Source: a virus. From it: a DNA stretch of 31,994 bases. The position numbers were made by a program, and so were the translations under genes. Within the stretch, counting starts at the first letter, position 1. Each line of letters starts with the position of its first letter. The notes under the pieces were generated by a model, which saw nothing but the letters and a program-made list of their open reading frames with translations, had not been told where the DNA came from and did not search any database. Shown here piece after piece: positions 3,523 through 27,577 of the stretch. The stretch is from positions 1 to 31,994 of IMG/VR virus record IMGVR_UViG_3300025311_000013. One strand, given 5' to 3'.

Positions 3523-3663
3523 TTAGGTGAAGTTAATGGTAGGAACGGTTGGGTCGAGCGGAACATCTAGGTTCACATGCTCGATGTCGCACGGCAGGAG
3601 GATTGTTGCCTTGGTGATGAATGGGATTCGATTGTCGATGGTGACCCAGGCGGGAAGTTGCAT
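3523..3663 (-). CDS. 46-aa hypothetical protein
   Basis: A short ORF between the transglycosylase stop (2 bp upstream) and the membrane-protein start (directly adjacent), so tight packing supports it. The protein is beta-like and proline-rich (NLDVPLDPTVPTINFT) with one cysteine. I do not recognise it. Confidence 0.5.
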   Translation of the reverse strand: MQLPAWVTIDNRIPFITKATILLPCDIEHVNLDVPLDPTVPTINFT

Positions 3664-5458: not shown

Positions 5459-5468
5459 TCATGTGGGG

Positions 5469-5693
5469 TTAATTGCCAAACAGGCGCGGGCCAAAGATCC
5501 CAGCGAGCGTACCGGCCGCTGAGGCAATACCAATCAGATACCAGCGCCAGTTTTCAAGATGCAAAATGCGGTTTTCGTGGTCGTCGGTAAGCTTGTTGAC
5601 CTTCTCAATTAACGACCCTACCTTCTCGTCCAATCGAATCAAGAGGTCATGGTCTTCGATACTTCGTCGATTTTGTTGCTGGGATTCTTCCAT
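5469..5693 (-). CDS. XhlA-like holin/haemolysin-type membrane protein
   Basis: A 74-aa protein with a polar, heptad-like N-terminal half (LLIRLDEKVGSLIEKVNKLT), the motif ENRILHLENWRWY and a single membrane helix at about 51-68. That layout is the one seen in XhlA proteins of Bacillus PBSX-type lysis cassettes, which work with a holin and endolysin at the inner membrane. No Shine-Dalgarno site precedes the ATG; the 10 nt before it contain a perfect DnaA-box sequence. Confidence 0.65.
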   Translation of the reverse strand: MEESQQQNRRSIEDHDLLIRLDEKVGSLIEKVNKLTDDHENRILHLENWRWYLIGIASAAGTLAGIFGPRLFGN

Positions 5694-11486: not shown

Positions 11487-11499
11487 GTATGAGGGTTAA

Positions 11500-13350
11500 T
11501 CATCGATATTTGGCGACTATCTTTGCTCCTTTGAGTCGGATGTCGAACCAGCGGTATTTGTTTATGGATACGTAGCCTATCCCAGTGGCCTCGAATTTCA
11601 CCTTGGCTTGGTAGAACTTGTCGAGGGAGAGGCTGAGCGCCTTTTCAAAGTTGTAAGCCGATACCCCGTCGCCGCCGCCTCCGATTTCACGGCTTCCGAT
11701 TGTGCTTGAGCCAACGTTCACGGCTTGGCCTCGGTCGACATACGTTCCCGTCCCGTTAAGCGTGCCTACCAGCGTGTAGCCGCCGTTGTCCACGGCGATG
11801 TAGACCTTGACTATCTGTTCGGGGGAAATGAGCCCCTGGACAACGAACTTCTTGCTTTTCTTGAGCTCCTGGACATCCAGCGGAGAGAGATTTCCTTCCC
11901 AGTAGTTCGGAATCACGGAATCGTCGTCATCGAAACCTGAGAAGCCAACGTAGACGTTGTCCGAAACACTGTCCCCGACCAGAAGCGTGCCGTTGTAGGT
12001 AGCGAAGGAGCTTGCAGAGATGTCCTGCTTATCCAGTACCTGGGTCAATTTGTTAAAGGTAATGATTGTGTTGTTGTTCGTCGAATCCTTATGTCGGCAG
12101 GCGAAGACTATGTACTCGCCCCATTCGTGGGCGACGGCTTTCTCAAAACGGTAGTCCGACAGCTTTACTCCCCAAGCCGCGCCATTCTTAGCCTTGCGCT
12201 TGGAGATTGAAAGAGGGAGGACATCAGTGCCAAGCTGATTTAAGGTCAAGAGCCTAAACTGCGGGTCAGCTTCGTCCGTGTCGTCGATGTAGTAAATGCC
12301 GTTCCCCGTGGCAACGGCTGCCCGGTGGTTCGGGATACCAACTTTGTCTCGGTAGATGAGGTTCGTGGCTCCGGTGTCTGTCGAGGTCAGGGTCAGCCTC
12401 CAGGTCTTGAGCTCATGGAGGCAGAATTCCGCGTCGTCGTAGGTGGCGACAAACTGTGCGCTTCCTCCGCCGTCATCCTGTCTAAAAACGAAGCCTTGCC
12501 CGGCCGTGCGTGGAGTTGATTTTGTAAAGTCGGTGATTCCGGTGTTGTTCGAGTTCTCCCATTGGTAGCTCGCGGTGCCGACTCCGGCATTCGATAAAGT
12601 GTAGGCCCCTGAGGTGTAGTTGATGGTTCCGGTTCCTCCGAGCGAACCAGTCAGAACGCCGTTGTAGTTGTCCGTGTAGACCTCGCCTGAGGCGGTAATC
12701 GTGATTTCAACAGCGAAGCACGTCCTTACGGCTCCGGCTGCCTTAAACGCCAGAGTTCCTGAAAGGGATGTCGTCGCCTCGCCCGAAACGGTGGTGTATG
12801 CGGCGGCATCGATGTAGCTTCCATAAATTCCGGTCTTGTCCTTGGTGCGGCCCCAGAGGAATATTCGGTTCTGCTTGATCTTGATTCGCCCCTGGTAGTT
12901 TTTGGTAGCGTCGGTCAGGTCGGTGTAGCTGCCGGGATTGGCCGTCATTATCTTGAACGGCCCGGCATTCGGGGAACAGACAAACATCTGGGCGCCGGCT
13001 AAAGAAGCGTAGTTGTCAAAAGAGCATTCATCGGTTTCTGCTGCGGCTGGAAACAGATTGGTGCCGACTTCCACCCAGTCCTCAGTAGCGGTGTCGTAGT
13101 ATTCGAGCTTCCGTCCTCGTTTGCGGTAGGCAATCTGCGTCCCGTCCGCTTTCTGCGTGACGTGCAAGCCATCAATGCTTCCGGTTCCAAGATTCTCAGT
13201 TCCCAGCAAGTCCAGGCCCCGCCTCAGCTCGATTCTGTCGCCTAGTGTCAGCCAGTTGAGGGAGCGTGAAGCTGCTCCATTGGGAATGGACTGGTCTTCG
13301 ACGGTGTCAATCGTCCCGTATGAAAAATCTGATACTTGGAATTGGAGCAT
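11500..13350 (-). CDS. Probable tail nozzle / stabilisation protein
   Basis: A 616-aa, beta-rich protein. It begins with residues on a surface suited to binding the tail (QSIPNGAASRSLNWLTLGDRIELRRGLDLLG), and then has repeated 50-70-residue blocks with ratios of Tyr, Trp and Gly like a beta-propeller. That N-terminal pattern and overall build are those of podoviral tail tube/nozzle proteins (T7 gp12-like, P22 gp10-like). Position next to the adaptor gene agrees. It would close the portal channel and start the short tail. Assignment is by architecture, not search. Confidence 0.5.
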   Translation of the reverse strand: MLQFQVSDFSYGTIDTVEDQSIPNGAASRSLNWLTLGDRIELRRGLDLLGTENLGTGSIDGLHVTQKADGTQIAYRKRGRKLEYYDTATEDWVEVGTNLFPAAAETDECSFDNYASLAGAQMFVCSPNAGPFKIMTANPGSYTDLTDATKNYQGRIKIKQNRIFLWGRTKDKTGIYGSYIDAAAYTTVSGEATTSLSGTLAFKAAGAVRTCFAVEITITASGEVYTDNYNGVLTGSLGGTGTINYTSGAYTLSNAGVGTASYQWENSNNTGITDFTKSTPRTAGQGFVFRQDDGGGSAQFVATYDDAEFCLHELKTWRLTLTSTDTGATNLIYRDKVGIPNHRAAVATGNGIYYIDDTDEADPQFRLLTLNQLGTDVLPLSISKRKAKNGAAWGVKLSDYRFEKAVAHEWGEYIVFACRHKDSTNNNTIITFNKLTQVLDKQDISASSFATYNGTLLVGDSVSDNVYVGFSGFDDDDSVIPNYWEGNLSPLDVQELKKSKKFVVQGLISPEQIVKVYIAVDNGGYTLVGTLNGTGTYVDRGQAVNVGSSTIGSREIGGGGDGVSAYNFEKALSLSLDKFYQAKVKFEATGIGYVSINKYRWFDIRLKGAKIVAKYR

Positions 13351-13356
13351 TCATGG

Positions 13357-14010
13357 CTAGTTAATTCGGTTCTCCGATTGGAGGCTGTCATCCAGAAGCA
13401 CCGAGCCGTCCATCTCCTGGAGCTTGAGGTCAGCATCCCAGTCGATGAAAGCTTTGCGGAGGATAGCGTAATGGGCTTCCCAGCGGTCATCCCAGGCTCT
13501 CGACTTATCGCCCGCATCAATGGCGTAATAGACCTTTGCCATCTCGTAAGCCAATAGAGCGTGGAACTCGGACGGCCAGGTAAGCGTGGTTGCGGCGGAA
13601 GATACGGTGGAAGCAGAAATATCGTCGGTCTTGTAGATGTAGGTTTCGGTCAGGGTTTCCGCAACGCCCTGCGTGCCGGCCAGATAGAACTTAGACTGTC
13701 GGTGGTCGGTCCAGAACCGGTCGGGGCTCGAGCGATGTGAGACCCGCTTGGCAAAAGGAACCGGATGCAGGAGGGTTGTGCCTCGGTATAGGTTTACCCA
13801 GGCCCGGAAGTCGGCTGCCAGCGTGTAGCTGGTCGTGTAGGTCTGGCCTGCCGTAGTCGTTTGGGTAGCTCGCTCTTTTTGGTGGATTAAGAGCTTCTGT
13901 TCCCGCTCGAACCTGTTCTTGGCCGTGTTGGCAAGCTGAATCTCCAGCGTCTGGTCTAACGTGTCATCAATCAGTCCTTCAAATTGGGTGAGAATTTCCG
14001 GGTCGGTCAT
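13357..14010 (-). CDS. Head-tail adaptor protein
   Basis: A 217-aa protein; a GTG two codons upstream at 14016 is an alternative start. The N-terminal half has helices and a beta insert. The C-terminal helices FHALLAYEMAKVYYAIDAGD and WDDRWEAHYAILRKAFIDW have the aromatic helical pattern of gp4/gp6-type connector proteins that sit under the portal. Position between fibre and nozzle genes agrees. It lies 6 bp before the nozzle start. Confidence 0.5.
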   Translation of the reverse strand: MTDPEILTQFEGLIDDTLDQTLEIQLANTAKNRFEREQKLLIHQKERATQTTTAGQTYTTSYTLAADFRAWVNLYRGTTLLHPVPFAKRVSHRSSPDRFWTDHRQSKFYLAGTQGVAETLTETYIYKTDDISASTVSSAATTLTWPSEFHALLAYEMAKVYYAIDAGDKSRAWDDRWEAHYAILRKAFIDWDADLKLQEMDGSVLLDDSLQSENRIN

Positions 14011-15110: not shown

Positions 15111-15128
15111 GAAGTTGAAAGTTAATTG

Positions 15129-15428: not shown

Positions 15429-15487
15429 GTGTATTTGTTAATTGCTTCACTCCGCCCCCATAAAGGGGCAGGAGAAGAAATCAACTA

Positions 15488-16538: not shown

Positions 16539-17747
16539 TTAGACGTAGTTGAAGGTGTTGACTTTGACGTTGACGAGCTTCTTGGCTCCGTCAGCGAAGG
16601 TCTTTTTGCCGAACAGGGTGTAAGGAATTACCTTGTGGCCCAGTCTGGCTTCTGCCTTCTCAACTTGAACGGTTGGATTCTTCTGGATGACCATGTCAAC
16701 TGCGCCTTTAACGCCGAACATGAGTTGGGACATGCAAAGGGTTGTTGACCAGCCATCAGTGGCATCGGTCAGGGTTTCCGAAACAATCGGCGCGCCCGCG
16801 CCGCGGTAGGTGATGTTCATCCAGTCGGAGCCTGGGACATCAGTGGCCGTGACACCGTAGAACTTGGCCTGGTTTTCCGCAGAGAGAGCAACCTGGGTCG
16901 AGTTTGTGGTTCCTGGCGCGTTAAACAAGGCAGCCAGGCTGACACGGGTTGCGTCCACATTTGCGCCTATCAAGACGTTGCCAGCGGTAGAACCGATGGA
17001 AGAAACGAACGTGATGGTGACGCCATTGAAAACGAGGGTGTCGGTGTTGGTCGGCTGGGTGGCGAGGTTTAGCCGGCCAGTCCAGTAAGAACCGTTCGAG
17101 ACGTAGAGATCAAAACCGTAATAGCGGCCGACATGGCCGTTTTCTCCGGTCTTATCGCCCAAGGCGGATTCCTTGCCTGCAAGATATTCAAGCAGGACTT
17201 GGTAAACATCTGGGGTGAGGTTTGCGAACGCGCCGCCGTCAGACCAGGTGTTCAATCGTCCGAGCTTCTTCTGGGCCAGGGCGAACATCTTTTGGATGTT
17301 GGCAGTGGTGATGGTGGCTCCGTTGCCAGATGTGCCACCAAAGGAAGCATCGTCGATTGTGGATGTGGCGTTGGCGACTTCCGCCAGATACCAACCGTTG
17401 ATGATGTTGGTCATCTGGTTTGAGGTGTCTTCGGTATATCGAGCTCGCTCGTTGAAGTTCGATTGAATTTCGTCGAGGTCGTCGATGTAGAACGGAATAA
17501 CCGGGGTCTTATCAACGGCCAAAGATTCGGCCGTGTCGGTCAAATCTTGGAAGATGACATCAGTACCCCTGGTGTAGTCCTGCGGGACAGTGGCCGAACG
17601 ATATACTCGCTTGACGGTGTCGCCGACTTGAAGGTCAGACTCCAATCGGAAGTTGGCCTGAGGGCGGAAGACGTTCTTTGTCCAGAACTTCTCCTGCATC
17701 TCTCTGGCCCAAATCGTTGGGAATGACGCTGATAGTGAGTTTGCTAT
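16539..17747 (-). CDS. Major coat protein, P22-like HK97 fold, apparent ATA start
   Basis: The first ATG (17699) would start inside a conserved segment. Extending the frame gives (M)ANSLSASFPTIWAREMQEKF, the usual beginning of P22-like coat proteins, with the Met position encoded by ATA at 17747; no ATG, GTG or TTG is available there. The product is 402 aa. GDTVKRVYRSATVPQDYTRG and PVIPFYIDDLDEIQS are core coat motifs. Residues of about 225-335 look like an inserted beta domain (LVFNGVTITFVSSIGSTAGN), in the manner of the P22 I-domain. It follows the scaffold gene. Leader TTAACCCCACCCAT, no Shine-Dalgarno site. Confidence 0.8.
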   Translation of the reverse strand: MANSLSASFPTIWAREMQEKFWTKNVFRPQANFRLESDLQVGDTVKRVYRSATVPQDYTRGTDVIFQDLTDTAESLAVDKTPVIPFYIDDLDEIQSNFNERARYTEDTSNQMTNIINGWYLAEVANATSTIDDASFGGTSGNGATITTANIQKMFALAQKKLGRLNTWSDGGAFANLTPDVYQVLLEYLAGKESALGDKTGENGHVGRYYGFDLYVSNGSYWTGRLNLATQPTNTDTLVFNGVTITFVSSIGSTAGNVLIGANVDATRVSLAALFNAPGTTNSTQVALSAENQAKFYGVTATDVPGSDWMNITYRGAGAPIVSETLTDATDGWSTTLCMSQLMFGVKGAVDMVIQKNPTVQVEKAEARLGHKVIPYTLFGKKTFADGAKKLVNVKVNTFNYV

Positions 17748-17785
17748 ATGGGTGGGGTTAATATTTCGTTAGCCCCGTTTTGCCT

Positions 17786-18667: not shown

Positions 18668-18735
18668 GTTTGTCCTTCGGTTAATTCTTTGGGTTGGCCA
18701 ATACAGGCCAAGAGCCGATTTTGGGTTGTCCGGCT

Positions 18736-19232: not shown

Positions 19233-19469
19233 TTATTGGGTTAATTGTTCAAGTAATTTAGCTATAGCTCCACAGAAACTCTGGACGTTCTTATCGAAGT
19301 TCTTCCCCTTCATCATGTTGCGAAGGACGTTGTCTTCGAACTTGCCTGTGCGGAACTCCTTCTTGTACGAAATGGATATCTTTCGGGTCCTTGGATAGGC
19401 CGAAATCAGGATGACGTTGTCGTCCGTCAGTACTAGTGGTGGGACTTTATTGCTTTGAAATGGCCACAT
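19233..19469 (-). CDS. 78-aa hypothetical protein
   Basis: ATG at 19469 is chosen; a TTG directly before it is possible. The protein has two beta strands (VILISAYPRTRKISISY) and a basic helix (NVLRNMMKGKNFDKNVQ). It overlaps the upstream gene by 23 nt. I do not recognise it. Confidence 0.55.
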   Translation of the reverse strand: MWPFQSNKVPPLVLTDDNVILISAYPRTRKISISYKKEFRTGKFEDNVLRNMMKGKNFDKNVQSFCGAIAKLLEQLTQ

Positions 19470-20679: not shown

Positions 20680-20821
20680 CAGTAGTGTCCGGTTAATTTC
20701 AGGATCACTGACTTGAAAGCCAATAGTGATGCGGGGTTCTGGGCGACAGGAGGTGTCCCCGACTTGAATTGGAAATCGCCACGTGCGCTAGCGTTCCGGT
20801 GTTCACGAACCCGGAGCCGAC

Positions 20822-21596
20822 ATGTATCTTGGCAAGACGCTGTTCGCGCAGGTCATGGAGTTCCTGCCGTGGAAGACCTTCCATCGCATCGTGGATCGCT
20901 ACGCCGGCGATCACCGGATCCGGACCCTCAGTTGTGCGGAGCAGTTTCGCATCATGGCGTTCGCGCAGCTGACCTACCGCGAGAGCTTGCGCGATATCGA
21001 GGCGTGCCTGGCCGCGCAAGCGGGCAAGCTGTACCACATGGGCATCGGCGAGGCGGTGGCGCGCTCGACGTTGGCCGATGCCAACGAAGTGCGCGACTGG
21101 CGGATCTACTTCGAGTTTGCCCAGCGGTTGATCGTCAAAGCCCGGGCGCTCTACGTCGGCGAGGACTTCGGTGTGGAGCTGGCCAATACCGTCTATGCGC
21201 TCGATGCCACAACCATCGATCTGTGTCTGTCGATGTTCCCATGGGCACCCTTTCGGTCCACCAAGGCCGCCGTGAAGCTGCACACGCTGCTCGACCTGCG
21301 CGGCTCGATTCCTACCTTTATTCACGTCTCCGATGGCACGCTGCACGATGTAAATGTCCTGGACTTGCTCATCATCGAAGCCGGCGCCTTCTACATCATG
21401 GACCGCGGCTACCTGGACTTCGAGCGGCTCTACGCGCTGGACCAGGCGGGCGGCTTCTTTGTCACGCGCGCCAAACGGAACCTCGATGCCCGACGGGTGT
21501 ACTCGTCGCCGGTGGATCGCAGCAGCGGGCTGATTTGCGACCAGACCATCGCGCTCAACGGCTTCTACGCCGCCAAGCACTACCCCGGGCACCTGC
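20822..21596 (+). pseudogene. IS4 transposase, 5' part
   Basis: The first 258 codons of a DDE transposase with D128 (YALDATTID) and D194 (IMDRGYLDF). The frame is intact until the IS3-family insertion. Joined to 24918-25312 it gives a continuous 389-aa protein ending in NQLKLFEF, full length for the family, so only the insertion broke it. Confidence 0.88.
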
Positions 21597-21668
21597 CCTC
21601 CCTGCCAAGATAGCTGAGACACTTTCCCTATCGGAAATTACGGTGCAGGGCGGGGAGGTGCAAGGACC

Positions 21669-22108
21669 TTGATGAACCCGATCCGCAGGATGCTGGTAGA
21701 CCAGTCGCCCGTGGGAGAGCCGGAGCGGAGGGGCGACGAGCGAAGCGAGGCGCCCCGTAGCGAAGGGTCTCCCACGGGCGAGCGCGCGGTCGCCCCGGTG
21801 CCGCCCGACCCCGAAGTGCCGGCCCGCCACGTCCGGCGACGCTTCACGACTGCCTACAAGCTCGAGATCTTGCGGAAAGCGGACGCGTGTCAGCGGCCCG
21901 GCGAGCTCGGGGCCTTGTTGCGCCGCGAAGGGCTCTACTCGTCGCATCTGGTGACCTGGCGCCGCCAGCGCGCGCACGGCTTGACGCCCAAACCACGCGG
22001 TCGGAAGAAGACGGCGGTCGATCCGCGGGTGAAGAAGTTGGAGCAGGAGAATCGGCGCCTGACGTTGCGGCTGGACAAGGCGGAGGCCATCATCGCGTTC
22101 CAAAAAAA
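21669..22108 (+). pseudogene. IS3 OrfA, 5' part
   Basis: A HTH_Tnp_1-type protein: HVRRRFTTAYKLEILRKAD then SSHLVTWRRQ and a leucine-zipper region (VKKLEQENRRLTLRLDKAEA). The IS110-family element interrupts it right after IIAFQK; the rest (KVAELLGIPLKPFESDETD, stop) is at 23715-23774. The first ~50 residues are encoded by a palindromic repeat and look like a late extension. Confidence 0.8.
21705..21781. repeat. REP-like palindrome within OrfA
   Basis: Perfect 14-bp arms (21705-21718 and 21768-21781) enclose a second GGGGCG/CGCCCC pair and the low-complexity GAGCGAAGCGAG stretch. The build is that of small palindromic repeats (REP/MITE-like). It keeps the OrfA frame open. Confidence 0.6.
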
Positions 22109-22110
22109 CT

Positions 22111-22345
22111 CTCGGGCCCGGCGCGGCCGTCCCACCTGCTGGACGAGAAACTCCCAACCAGCTACTGTCGTGCGCCCCGGGGGGAGTGGCCGCCAGCTTA
22201 TTGGTGTCCTTACGAACCCGTAAAAAAACATGGTCCGGGGGTGTCTTGCGCACTTGATAGTGGTGACGCCCTCACGGCGATCCCGTTTAGGAAAGTGATC
22301 GATTGCGCCACCCCTGCTCCCGGGCATTCCGAGGAGGTTATCGAC
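22111..22345 (+). ncRNA. Candidate bridge-RNA region of the IS110 element
   Basis: IS110-group elements (for example IS621) express a bridge RNA from the non-coding left end, whose loops pair with target and donor DNA. This 235-nt left end has no gene and lies in the right place. I did not resolve the guide loops, so this rests on family knowledge. Confidence 0.4.
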
Positions 22346-23713
22346 ATGCCCAGGACAAAGCCGCGCACGCGATCATCGAAGCAGCTGTCCACGATCCATC
22401 CCGATGCCGCCGGCCTCGATGTGGGTTCGACGTTTCACGTCGTGGCCGTACCCGGCGACCGGGACGACCAACCGGTGCGGACGTTTCGGACCTTCACCAG
22501 CGATCTCCACCAGTTGGCGGATTGGCTGAAGGCGGTCGGCATCACGACGGTCGCGATGGAGTCGACGGGGGTCTACTGGATTCCTGTCTTCGAGATCCTC
22601 GAAGCGCGGGGCTTCGAGGTGCTGCTGGTGAATGCCCGCGACGCGAAGAACGTGCCCGGCCGGAAGACGGATGTGAACGATGCGCAGTGGTTGCAGCAGC
22701 TCCACCAATATGGACTGCTGCGCGGAAGCTTCCGGCCACGAGACGGCGTCGTTCGCCTTCGTGCGTATTTGCGCCATCGCGAACGGCTGGTCGACTACGC
22801 CGCCGCGCACATTCAACAGATGCAGAAGGCGCTCATACAAATGAACGTGCAGCTCCATCACGTGGTGTCCGACATCACGGGGCTCACGGGCCTGCGCATC
22901 ATTCGCGCCATCGTGGCTGGCAATCACGCACCCGAGCAGTTGGCGACATTTCGGGATGTGCGATGCCACGCCTCGGAGGAGACCATCCGCGAGGCGCTGA
23001 CCGGCAACTATCGGCCTGAGCACGTCTTTGCCCTGCGACACGCGCTCGAGATCTACGACGTGCACCAGACCAAGATCGCCGAGTGCGACGTTGAAATCGA
23101 AGCGATCTTGGCGATATTGAACGACGCGCGTCAGGCGCCTCGCGATCCGCTCCCGTCTGTGCGGCACGCCAAAGCCCGCAACGAACCCAGATTCGAGGCG
23201 CGGCCTGCGCTCTACACCTTGCTGGGCGCCGATCTGACCCAGATCCACGGATTCGGTCCCTACACCGTGTTACGACTCGTCGGCGAGTGCGGCGACGACA
23301 TGCGCAAATGGCCGACGGACAAGCACTTCACCTCGTGGTTGAGCCTCGCACCCGGCAACAAGATCTCGGGCGGCCGTGTACTCAGCTCGAAAACGCGTCG
23401 GTCGGCGAACCGGGCGGCCGCGCTGCTTCGGATCGCGGCCGTCAACGTGGGCCGGACCGACACCGCCCTCGGCGCCTTCTATCGGCGCCTGGCCGCCCGC
23501 ATCGGGAAAGCGAAGGCCGTGACCGCGACCGCTCGGAAACTCGCCGTCCTGTTCTACCGAGCCCTTCGATTCGGCCTGGCGTACGCCGATCCCGGTGCGT
23601 CTCACTACGAAGCACGATACCGGCAGCGCGTGGTCCACACCCTGCACCGGCGCGCGCGCGAATTGGGATTCACTCTTGTCGCGAACTCGGCGGCCGGGGC
23701 TGGAGTTTCTTAG
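22346..23713 (+). CDS. IS110-family DEDD transposase
   Basis: A 455-aa protein, probably intact. N-terminal RuvC-like DEDD residues are D25 (GLDVGST), E72 (AMESTGVYW), D109 and D112 (RKTDVNDAQW). The C-terminal Tnp20 region has IHGFGPYTVLRLVGECGD and LSLAPGNKISGG, where the catalytic serine lies. The start at 22346 is fixed by GAGGAGG 8 nt upstream; a longer frame from 21887 is only the unused antisense-like extension through OrfA. It would move the element through a circular form with the bridge RNA. Confidence 0.9.
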   Translation: MPRTKPRTRSSKQLSTIHPDAAGLDVGSTFHVVAVPGDRDDQPVRTFRTFTSDLHQLADWLKAVGITTVAMESTGVYWIPVFEILEARGFEVLLVNARDAKNVPGRKTDVNDAQWLQQLHQYGLLRGSFRPRDGVVRLRAYLRHRERLVDYAAAHIQQMQKALIQMNVQLHHVVSDITGLTGLRIIRAIVAGNHAPEQLATFRDVRCHASEETIREALTGNYRPEHVFALRHALEIYDVHQTKIAECDVEIEAILAILNDARQAPRDPLPSVRHAKARNEPRFEARPALYTLLGADLTQIHGFGPYTVLRLVGECGDDMRKWPTDKHFTSWLSLAPGNKISGGRVLSSKTRRSANRAAALLRIAAVNVGRTDTALGAFYRRLAARIGKAKAVTATARKLAVLFYRALRFGLAYADPGASHYEARYRQRVVHTLHRRARELGFTLVANSAAGAGVS

Positions 23714-23714
23714 G

Positions 23715-23774
23715 AAAGTTGCCGAGCTCCTGGGGATCCCCCTGAAACCGTTCGAGTCCGACGAGACCGACTGA
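23715..23774 (+). pseudogene. IS3 OrfA, 3' part
   Basis: The OrfA tail KVAELLGIPLKPFESDETD with its stop overlapping the OrfB start (TGATG). Together with 21669-22108 it reconstructs OrfA. Because the native start is cut off, OrfB may now be poorly translated. Confidence 0.75.
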
Positions 23775-24904
23775 TGCAGGCCGTCGAGACGACGAGCCCC
23801 ACGATGGGGACGGCGGCGGCCTGCGATGCCTTGGGCGTCGCGCGCGCATCCGTGTATCGGCGGCGGCAACCGGCGCGCCCGCCGGCGCCGCGGCCGACGC
23901 CGCCGCGGGCCCTGGATCCGATCGAACGGCAGACCGTACTCGAGACGCTGCATAGTGAGCGCTTCCTCGACGCGGCCCCCGCCCAGGTGCATGCGACCCT
24001 GCTCGATGAAGGGACCTATCTCTGCTCACCACGCACGATGTACCGGCTGTTGGACACGGCCGGCGAGATCAAAGAGCGCCGCGCTCAGGTCCGCCGCCCG
24101 CACTACGCCGCGCCCGAGCTGCTGGCGACGCAGTCCAACGAAGTGTGGAGCTGGGACATCACCAAACTGCTGGGGCCGGCGAAGTGGACGTACTTCTATC
24201 TCTACGTGATCCTCGACATCTTCAGCCGCTATGTCGTCGGCTGGATGCTCGCCCCACGCGAGACCGCCGCCCTCGCCGAGCGGTTGATCGCCGAGACCTG
24301 CGCGAAGCACGCGATTCACCCCGGCCAACTCACGATCCACGCGGACCGCGGCGGCGCCATGCGCAGCAAGCCGGTCGCGCTGCTCCTGGCCGATCTCGGC
24401 GTGACGAAGACCCACAGCCGGCCGCACGTGTCCAACGACAATCCGTTTTCTGAAGCGCAGTTCAGAACGCTCAAGTACTGTCCGCAGTTTCCTGAGCGCT
24501 TCGGATCCCTGGAAGATGGGCGCGCGTTCGGGCAGGCCTTCTTCCGCTGGTACAACCACGAGCATCGACACAGCGGGCTCGGCTTTCTCACGCCCGCCGT
24601 CGTGCACTTCGGCCACGCCGCTCCCGTGCGCGCGCATCGACAGCAGGTCCTCGCCGCCGCCTACGCCGCCCATCCCGAGCGCTTCGTGAAGGGACGGCCA
24701 CAGCCGGCGGATCTGCCCACCGCCGTCTGGATCAACCCGCCTGTCAAAACACCGACGCGCCAGGATGCCCCAGCAACGACGATCGTCACCGCGGACGACC
24801 TCCAGGTCGACCCGATTTCGGGCGCCGACGACCACTCCGCAGTCAGCGTGATCGATCGCCGCGCGACTCTAATTACGTCACCCGTGGTGTCTCAATGTCA
24901 TTGA
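23774..24904 (+). CDS. IS3-family transposase OrfB
   Basis: A 376-aa rve-type DDE transposase: D128 (WSWDIT), D191 (IHADRG) and E227 (FSEAQF), with exactly 35 residues between the last two. An N-terminal HTH_21-like segment is present. The stop lies inside the right inverted repeat. Full length, but OrfA is split, so the element is probably immobile unless it is complemented. Confidence 0.9.
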   Translation: MQAVETTSPTMGTAAACDALGVARASVYRRRQPARPPAPRPTPPRALDPIERQTVLETLHSERFLDAAPAQVHATLLDEGTYLCSPRTMYRLLDTAGEIKERRAQVRRPHYAAPELLATQSNEVWSWDITKLLGPAKWTYFYLYVILDIFSRYVVGWMLAPRETAALAERLIAETCAKHAIHPGQLTIHADRGGAMRSKPVALLLADLGVTKTHSRPHVSNDNPFSEAQFRTLKYCPQFPERFGSLEDGRAFGQAFFRWYNHEHRHSGLGFLTPAVVHFGHAAPVRAHRQQVLAAAYAAHPERFVKGRPQPADLPTAVWINPPVKTPTRQDAPATTIVTADDLQVDPISGADDHSAVSVIDRRATLITSPVVSQCH

Positions 24905-24917
24905 CAGCGCCCGCTGC

Positions 24918-25312
24918 GCCGCATCCGCTATCGCGATGCCGACACCGGCAAGACCCTCGTGTTCCTGACCAATCAGTTCGCGCTGCCGGCCCTGACGATC
25001 TGCGCCTTGTACAAGTGTCGCTGGCAGGTCGAGTTGTTTTTCAAGTGGATCAAGCAGCATTTGAGAATCAAGCGTTTCTACGGCACCTCGGAGAACGCCG
25101 TCCGCACACAAATCTGGATCGCCATCAGTGTCTACGTCCTCGTGGCGATCATCAGGAAGCAACTCCAGCTCGAGGTGTCCTTGCACACACTGTTACAGAT
25201 CTTGTCGGTGACGCTCTTCGAGAAACTCCCCCTGCAACAAGCAGTTGCGGGTATCGACCCGTTCACCGATGACGCCGTTTCGCGTAATCAACTGAAACTA
25301 TTCGAGTTTTAA
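24918..25312 (+). pseudogene. IS4 transposase, 3' part
   Basis: Encodes RRIRYRDADTGKTLVFLTN and the IS4 signature Y-x2-R-x3-E-x6-K (YKCRWQVELFFKWIK), with E297 as third catalytic residue in the rebuilt protein. Ends NQLKLFEF at a stop within the right terminal repeat. Confidence 0.88.
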
Positions 25313-27437: not shown

Positions 27438-27577
27438 GAAAGTAATCGGTTAATGATGTTCTTAATTGTGTCTCGCAATCCTGACTGATAAATCACGCCT
27501 AAGTCTTCATATTGCCCCGTGCTCGCCCTGAAGACACGCGCGCTGATAGTTGTTTGCTTTGTCGTTATGACTTTCAT
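27422..27577 (-). CDS. 51-aa hypothetical protein
   Basis: A short basic ORF (MKVITTKQTTISARVFRAST...), coupled to the portal stop by ATGA and overlapping the next start by 16 nt. Tight overlaps on both sides support translation. Not recognised. Confidence 0.6.
   Translation of the reverse strand: MKVITTKQTTISARVFRASTGQYEDLGVIYQSGLRDTIKNIINRLLSWLQF

Follow-up and report, generated by a model that had tools for sequence, protein, structure and literature searches.

We analyzed a stretch of viral DNA of 31,994 nucleotides (positions 1 to 31,994 of the IMG/VR record IMGVR_UViG_3300025311_000013), called the window or W in the following. Its minus strand carries a major coat gene and, upstream of it, a gene that by its position probably encodes the scaffolding protein:

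16539..17744, minus strand: major coat protein from codon 2 through the stop codon (401 amino acids without the initiator); phrog_267 match, 25 relatives, HK97/P22-type fold matches
17745..17747, minus strand: ATA, at which the coat gene is proposed to start; the same codon is ATA in L009, ATG in L010 and TTG in L008
17786..18667, minus strand: gene upstream of coat, probable scaffolding protein; stop codon TAG at 17788-17786

The coat frame (17747-16539) begins with ATA GCA AAC TCA CTA TCA GCG TCA TTC CCA ACG ATT TGG GCC AGA GAG ATG and is intact and open down to the TAA at 16539. The ATA codon directly precedes the residues ANSLSASFPT. The in-frame stop upstream of the gene is the TAA at 17771-17769, which is followed by the codons CGA AAT ATT AAC CCC ACC CAT ATA GCA. 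Between this stop and the ATG at 17699-17697 (Met 17) the frame contains no ATG, GTG or TTG. A previous sequence-only reading had described an open frame upstream of the first ATG with ATA at the methionine position, which is exact, and had stated that no ATG, GTG or TTG is available there, which holds for every codon back to the upstream stop.

In a profile search the coat protein matched phrog_267, a family of major head proteins (E = 9.8e-26). A fold search, run with a structure model of only moderate confidence (mean pLDDT 71; below 50 in residues 1-37), matched P22 and Sf6, with 15% identity to the best fold match. The protein thus resembles the P22/HK97-fold coats of phrog_267 by family and by fold, but shares little sequence identity with any coat of solved structure. 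Its earlier description as P22-like is only loosely right: P22 is matched by fold, whereas by sequence Che8 gp6 and the cyanophage A4 coat are the closest solved proteins.

Viral contigs provided 25 loci with a homologue of the coat gene. These relatives have ATG, GTG, TTG or ATA at the position of the window ATA or within a few codons of it. The start codons aligned to the coat N-terminus are mostly ATG, with GTG in L012 and L013, TTG in L008 and ATA in L009; in divergent relatives the start lies no more than a few codons away. The closest coats are those of L009 (IMGVR_UViG_3300049432_000207, 80% amino acid identity), L008 (79%) and L010 (75%). We refer to the L009 contig (L009/L037/L038) as G1, to L010 as G2 and to L008 as G3. 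Comparing the coat genes of related contigs, which had been suggested as a check, revealed ATA at the homologous codon of G1. The G1 leader reads CCA ATT AAC CCC ACT CCC ATA GCA AAC TCA and that of G2 ATT AAC CTT GCA TAA ATG GCA AAC.

Residues 2-16 of the coat are almost identical across the four phages. In codons 2-16, W and G1 differ by seven base changes, all seven of them synonymous, where the chance of a random change being synonymous is 0.26. Over the whole coat gene 84 of 165 fourfold sites differ between the two (51%). Translation therefore covers the frame from the alanine behind the ATA onward, if not from further upstream. In portal and scaffold, too, W and G1 form the closest pair, so that a single origin of the ATA with subsequent retention is likely; the codon was probably inherited from one ancestor and did not arise twice independently. 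Each of the three close relatives has a homologue of the probable scaffold gene in the corresponding position (47-64% identity).

In the late-gene leaders of W, G1, G2 and G3 the sequence [A/C]ATTAAC recurs shortly before the start. The following sites were located in the window, where N gives the number of nucleotides between motif and start codon:

17757..17762, minus strand: ATTAAC, putative initiation motif of the coat gene, N9 to the ATA; contains an in-frame ATT at 17762-17760
18680..18685, minus strand: ATTAAC of the scaffold gene, N12 to ATG 18667; common to W and G1
19240..19245, minus strand: ATTAAC, N11 to ATG 19228; common to W, G1 and G3
27449..27454, minus strand: ATTAAC, N11 to ATG 27437
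15437..15442, minus strand: ATTAAC, N8 to ATG 15428
15121..15126, minus strand: ATTAAC, N10 to ATG 15110
13360..13365, minus strand: ATTAAC, N9 to ATG 13350; G3 has the same leader, then a TTG start
11495..11500, minus strand: ATTAAC, N8 to ATG 11486; common to W and G1
5468..5473, minus strand: ATTAAC, N9 to ATG 5458
3532..3537, minus strand: ATTAAC, N9 to ATG 3522

Further ATTAAC sites lacking a standard start (e.g. 26274, in reverse-strand coordinates of the window) were discarded, as they led to no convincing gene.

When the hexamers of the structural strand were counted without prior bias, ATTAAC ranked first before ATG frames of at least 60 codons. Of its 44 sites on this strand, 21 precede such a frame, against a base rate of 2.2% (naive p = 2e-23). 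On both strands of W and its three relatives, 22 of 72 ATTAAC sites are followed at 8-12 nt by an ATG opening at least 60 codons; at other distances such ATGs are only scattered singly. The bare pattern ATTAAC-N8..12-ATG was observed 24 times, compared to a mean of 3.0 and a maximum of 10 in 200 Markov-shuffled runs. Exact ATTAAC at 8-12 nt was found before 27 of 80 curated starts from five phages and in none of 320 control windows, where the motif had been defined on the same four phages as were tested and some G1 starts were picked with it in view. With up to one mismatch the numbers are 40 of 80 starts and 11 of 320 control windows (2.8 expected per 80). Four entries of the start list (G1 15192 and L077 349, 927 and 1645) are a few bases off and were scored as non-motif, which makes the count conservative. 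Two partial hold-outs became available after the motif had been defined: in L048 both ATTAAC sites are correctly placed, and L077 has ATTAAC-N8-ATG and ATTAAC-N9-TTG.

Shine-Dalgarno 4-mers, by comparison, precede 11 of the 80 curated starts with 10.5 expected, i.e. they are at background. The leaders are A/U-rich and G-poor, and upstream of the hexamer only an A at -3 and at -1 is conserved (A-N-A-ATTAAC). The coat leader of W, attaaccccacccat, has no extended Shine-Dalgarno sequence at proper spacing; an AGAGG lies about 35 nt off. As a general trait of the wider coat family the motif was rejected, since L011-L032 show weak A/T-rich enrichment only. Nor is the system common to 27 viral contigs chosen by an extended motif pattern. 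The coat leaders of the wider family (L011-L030) are mostly A/T-rich with no obvious Shine-Dalgarno sequence, which suggests that the respective hosts may make little use of it.

Two further genes of G1 may open with non-standard codons behind the motif. In the metallophosphatase gene (L038:3109-3855; Pfam Metallophos, phrog_221), ATTAAC-N9-ACG opens TKVYRVLVLPDIHLPF. No ATG, GTG or TTG occurs in this frame between the upstream stop and the DIH metal-binding motif, and the first ATG lies past DIH and would remove it. The homologue in mycobacteriophage MA5 has its annotated start within one residue of the ACG. The ACG is probably the start codon, but a search for relatives matched only the gene itself, so that a sequence error is possible there. 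The second case is the G1 homologue (g616, L037:15189-15191) of the window gene 11500-13350, in which an ATT follows ATTAAT-N10; the corresponding codon is ATG in W and TTG in G3. An ATT start is plausible here, but G1 has an upstream ATG, which overlaps the preceding gene. The weight of the argument should rest on the coat gene and not on the ACG or ATT genes.

Taken together, we consider it likely, with a probability of about three in four, that the coat protein is translated from the AUA at 17747-17745 and that the ribosome is placed by ATTAAC, an upstream motif of non-Shine-Dalgarno type. That ATA serves as the coat start, as the sequence-only reading had proposed from a single sequence, is supported by the ATA in a second phage, by ATG, GTG or TTG in the relatives, by the purely synonymous changes in codons 2-16 and by the spacing of the motif; that reading had noted neither the motif nor the in-frame AUU within it. 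The sequence, its conservation and the motif with its spacing are observed, while initiation at the AUA itself is what we infer from these comparisons. The expected N-terminal peptide would be (M)ANSLSASFPTIWAR.

Translation might instead begin at the AUU inside the motif (17762-17760), yielding M-NPTHI-ANSLSAS with the ATA as an ordinary isoleucine codon. AUU is the start codon of infC in E. coli, and the AUU is in frame in the W coat, the G1 coat and the G1 ACG gene (all N9), where it would encode similar peptides (INPTH/P). In most motif-led genes, however, this ATT lies in another frame or is separated from the gene by a stop, with an ATG 8-12 nt further on; in G2 a TAA stands between the ATT of the motif and the coat ATG. 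The CCCCAC behind the motif also turns up in leaders in which it lies outside the reading frame, as at G1 25902, and in MA5 the annotated start of the ACG-gene homologue falls within one residue of the ACG, not five codons upstream. An AUU start is less likely than the AUA start because the motif is an upstream signal at the same distance in ATG and TTG genes, while no other initiation signal precedes the AUU; we regard it as quite unlikely. It predicts the coat peptide NPTHIANSLSASFPTIWAR, and detection of ANSLSASFPTIWAR or MANSLSASFPTIWAR would be at odds with it. A start at ATG 17699 with loss of the first 16 residues can nearly be dismissed. This ATG is the first standard start codon and is the one chosen by a mechanical ORF finder, but the near-identity of residues 2-16 in four phages with exclusively synonymous W/G1 changes speaks against it, the coat starts of the relatives lie upstream of Met 17, and ATTAAC is not at its usual distance. 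Equally improbable is an assembly or base-calling error, or the loss of an ATG by decay of a dead prophage. The 4-kb insertion-sequence cluster of the window (see below) would fit a prophage or carrier state. Yet the coat frame is intact, and L009, an independent contig, likewise has ATA at this codon, followed by synonymous changes only; for this reason the ATA of the window is real and not a base-calling error.

A different objection concerns the interpretation of the motif and leaves the AUA start untouched. ATTAAC could be a transcription element, either a -10-like box or part of a T3-type phage promoter (AATTAACCCTCACTAAAG), with transcripts that are leaderless or nearly so. In favor of this, AATTAACCC resembles the beginning of the T3 promoter. 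In Deinococcus-Thermus, leaderless genes are common, with the -10 box directly adjacent (PMC12340547). Against it, upstream of the motif no block is conserved beyond the A at -3 and -1, the spacing varies between 8 and 12 nt, and the sites precede consecutive late genes, some lying within the end of the preceding gene. A T3/T7-type promoter would show conservation over a stretch of constant length that spans the transcription start; here only ANA-ATTAAC is conserved. We consider a promoter function unlikely.

An AUA start is odd for a coat gene, AUA being a poor start in model bacteria. In E. coli its yield does not exceed 1% of that of AUG (Hecht 2017, cited in PMC12864459). In S. aureus AUA starts reach about 10%, up to 30%, of AUG and need extended Shine-Dalgarno pairing (PMC13009471). 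The coat gene shares with the AUA- and AUU-start genes (S. aureus infC, ccpN, citZ and cvfC1; E. coli infC) a conserved near-cognate codon combined with a strong upstream positioning signal (PMC13009471). As in genes of the ccpN/infC type, there is no standard start at the conserved N-terminus and the near-cognate codon is kept in L009, but the coat leader lacks the strong extended Shine-Dalgarno sequence at proper spacing. Those genes use an extended Shine-Dalgarno sequence as their signal, and their start codon reduces the expression of regulators, whereas the window gene encodes a major structural protein and its signal is ATTAAC, with no Shine-Dalgarno sequence at proper spacing. The lack of Shine-Dalgarno 4-mer enrichment and the A/U-rich, G-poor leaders are reminiscent of non-Shine-Dalgarno initiation, both of the Bacteroidetes type and on unstructured leaders; unlike there, these phages have one specific hexamer whose distance to the start is nearly constant. 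The idea of a translation signal specific for late genes is shared with phage-encoded bS21 (PMC9723584), but no bS21 was found in the four records, which are possibly incomplete. The searched literature contained no account linking ATTAAC, translation initiation and phage. The AUA start of the coat is a further case of a known phenomenon, while ATTAAC without Shine-Dalgarno enrichment is the more novel part.

Based on these comparisons we propose the following mechanism. A-N-A-ATTAAC, located 8-12 nt before many late-gene starts of the clade, would place the ribosome without a Shine-Dalgarno sequence, and the AUA of the coat gene would presumably be read with formyl-methionine. Because the motif would fix the position of initiation, the start codon could drift between ATG, TTG, ATA and probably ACG. 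ATTAAC may stand in for the Shine-Dalgarno helix of known AUA starts and is probably the reason why the AUA start works. More tentatively, and at somewhat less than even odds, a dedicated non-Shine-Dalgarno signal of the phage clade or its host may set starts almost whatever the codon, with the highly expressed coat on AUA and another gene on ACG. The reader of the motif (rRNA pairing, S1-type binding or another factor), the tolerance of near-cognate codons and a coupling to the scaffold gene are speculative. Neither a phage tRNA nor a known RNA element (Rfam) was found. IF3 was likewise not found, and a phage single-subunit RNA polymerase gave no match in a search without positive control; in both cases the records may be fragments.

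RNA folding predicted a hairpin over the motif:

17754..17776, minus strand: predicted hairpin GGGGCUAA-cgaaaua-UUAACCCC, the 3' arm of which holds most of ATTAAC

In both ATA phages the predicted partner of the motif is a G-rich segment located where the scaffold gene ends or close by, as GGGGCUAA/UUAACCCC in W and GGGCUUAA/UUAACCCC in G1. The z-scores of these two sequences are -1.05 (weak) for W and -2.9 for the analogous pairing in G1. A ribosome finishing the scaffold gene could open the hairpin and thereby couple coat to scaffold synthesis, which we offer as a suggestion only, derived from the folding model.

AUA is among the poorest starts in model bacteria, and its best-documented cases rely on a strong Shine-Dalgarno sequence. 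A coat AUA kept over a long divergence, in phages with a sharp ATTAAC signal and no Shine-Dalgarno enrichment, points to a mode of initiation that is not understood and is easily tested. Gene finders will shorten such genes, the coat by 16 residues and the metallophosphatase by its metal site. Should host rRNA pair with the motif, or a factor of host or phage bind to it, the motif would also give a clue to the host and reveal a translation switch for late genes. A host search with the coat against genome contigs gave no match, and a phage collection contained distant coats only.

The window also contains a GC-rich (about 65%) insertion-sequence cluster at 20700-25100:

20822-21613, plus strand: DUF4372/DDE transposase
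21887-23713, plus strand: IS110-type transposase
23774-24904, plus strand: IS3/IS481-type integrase

The IS3-type transposase has matches in many phyla. The cluster separates two phage genes whose G1 homologues are neighbors. In G1 (L037/L038) the genes for portal, small head proteins, scaffold and coat form an uninterrupted block. Unlike this late-gene order, the window has tail-type genes and the insertion-sequence cluster between portal and scaffold.
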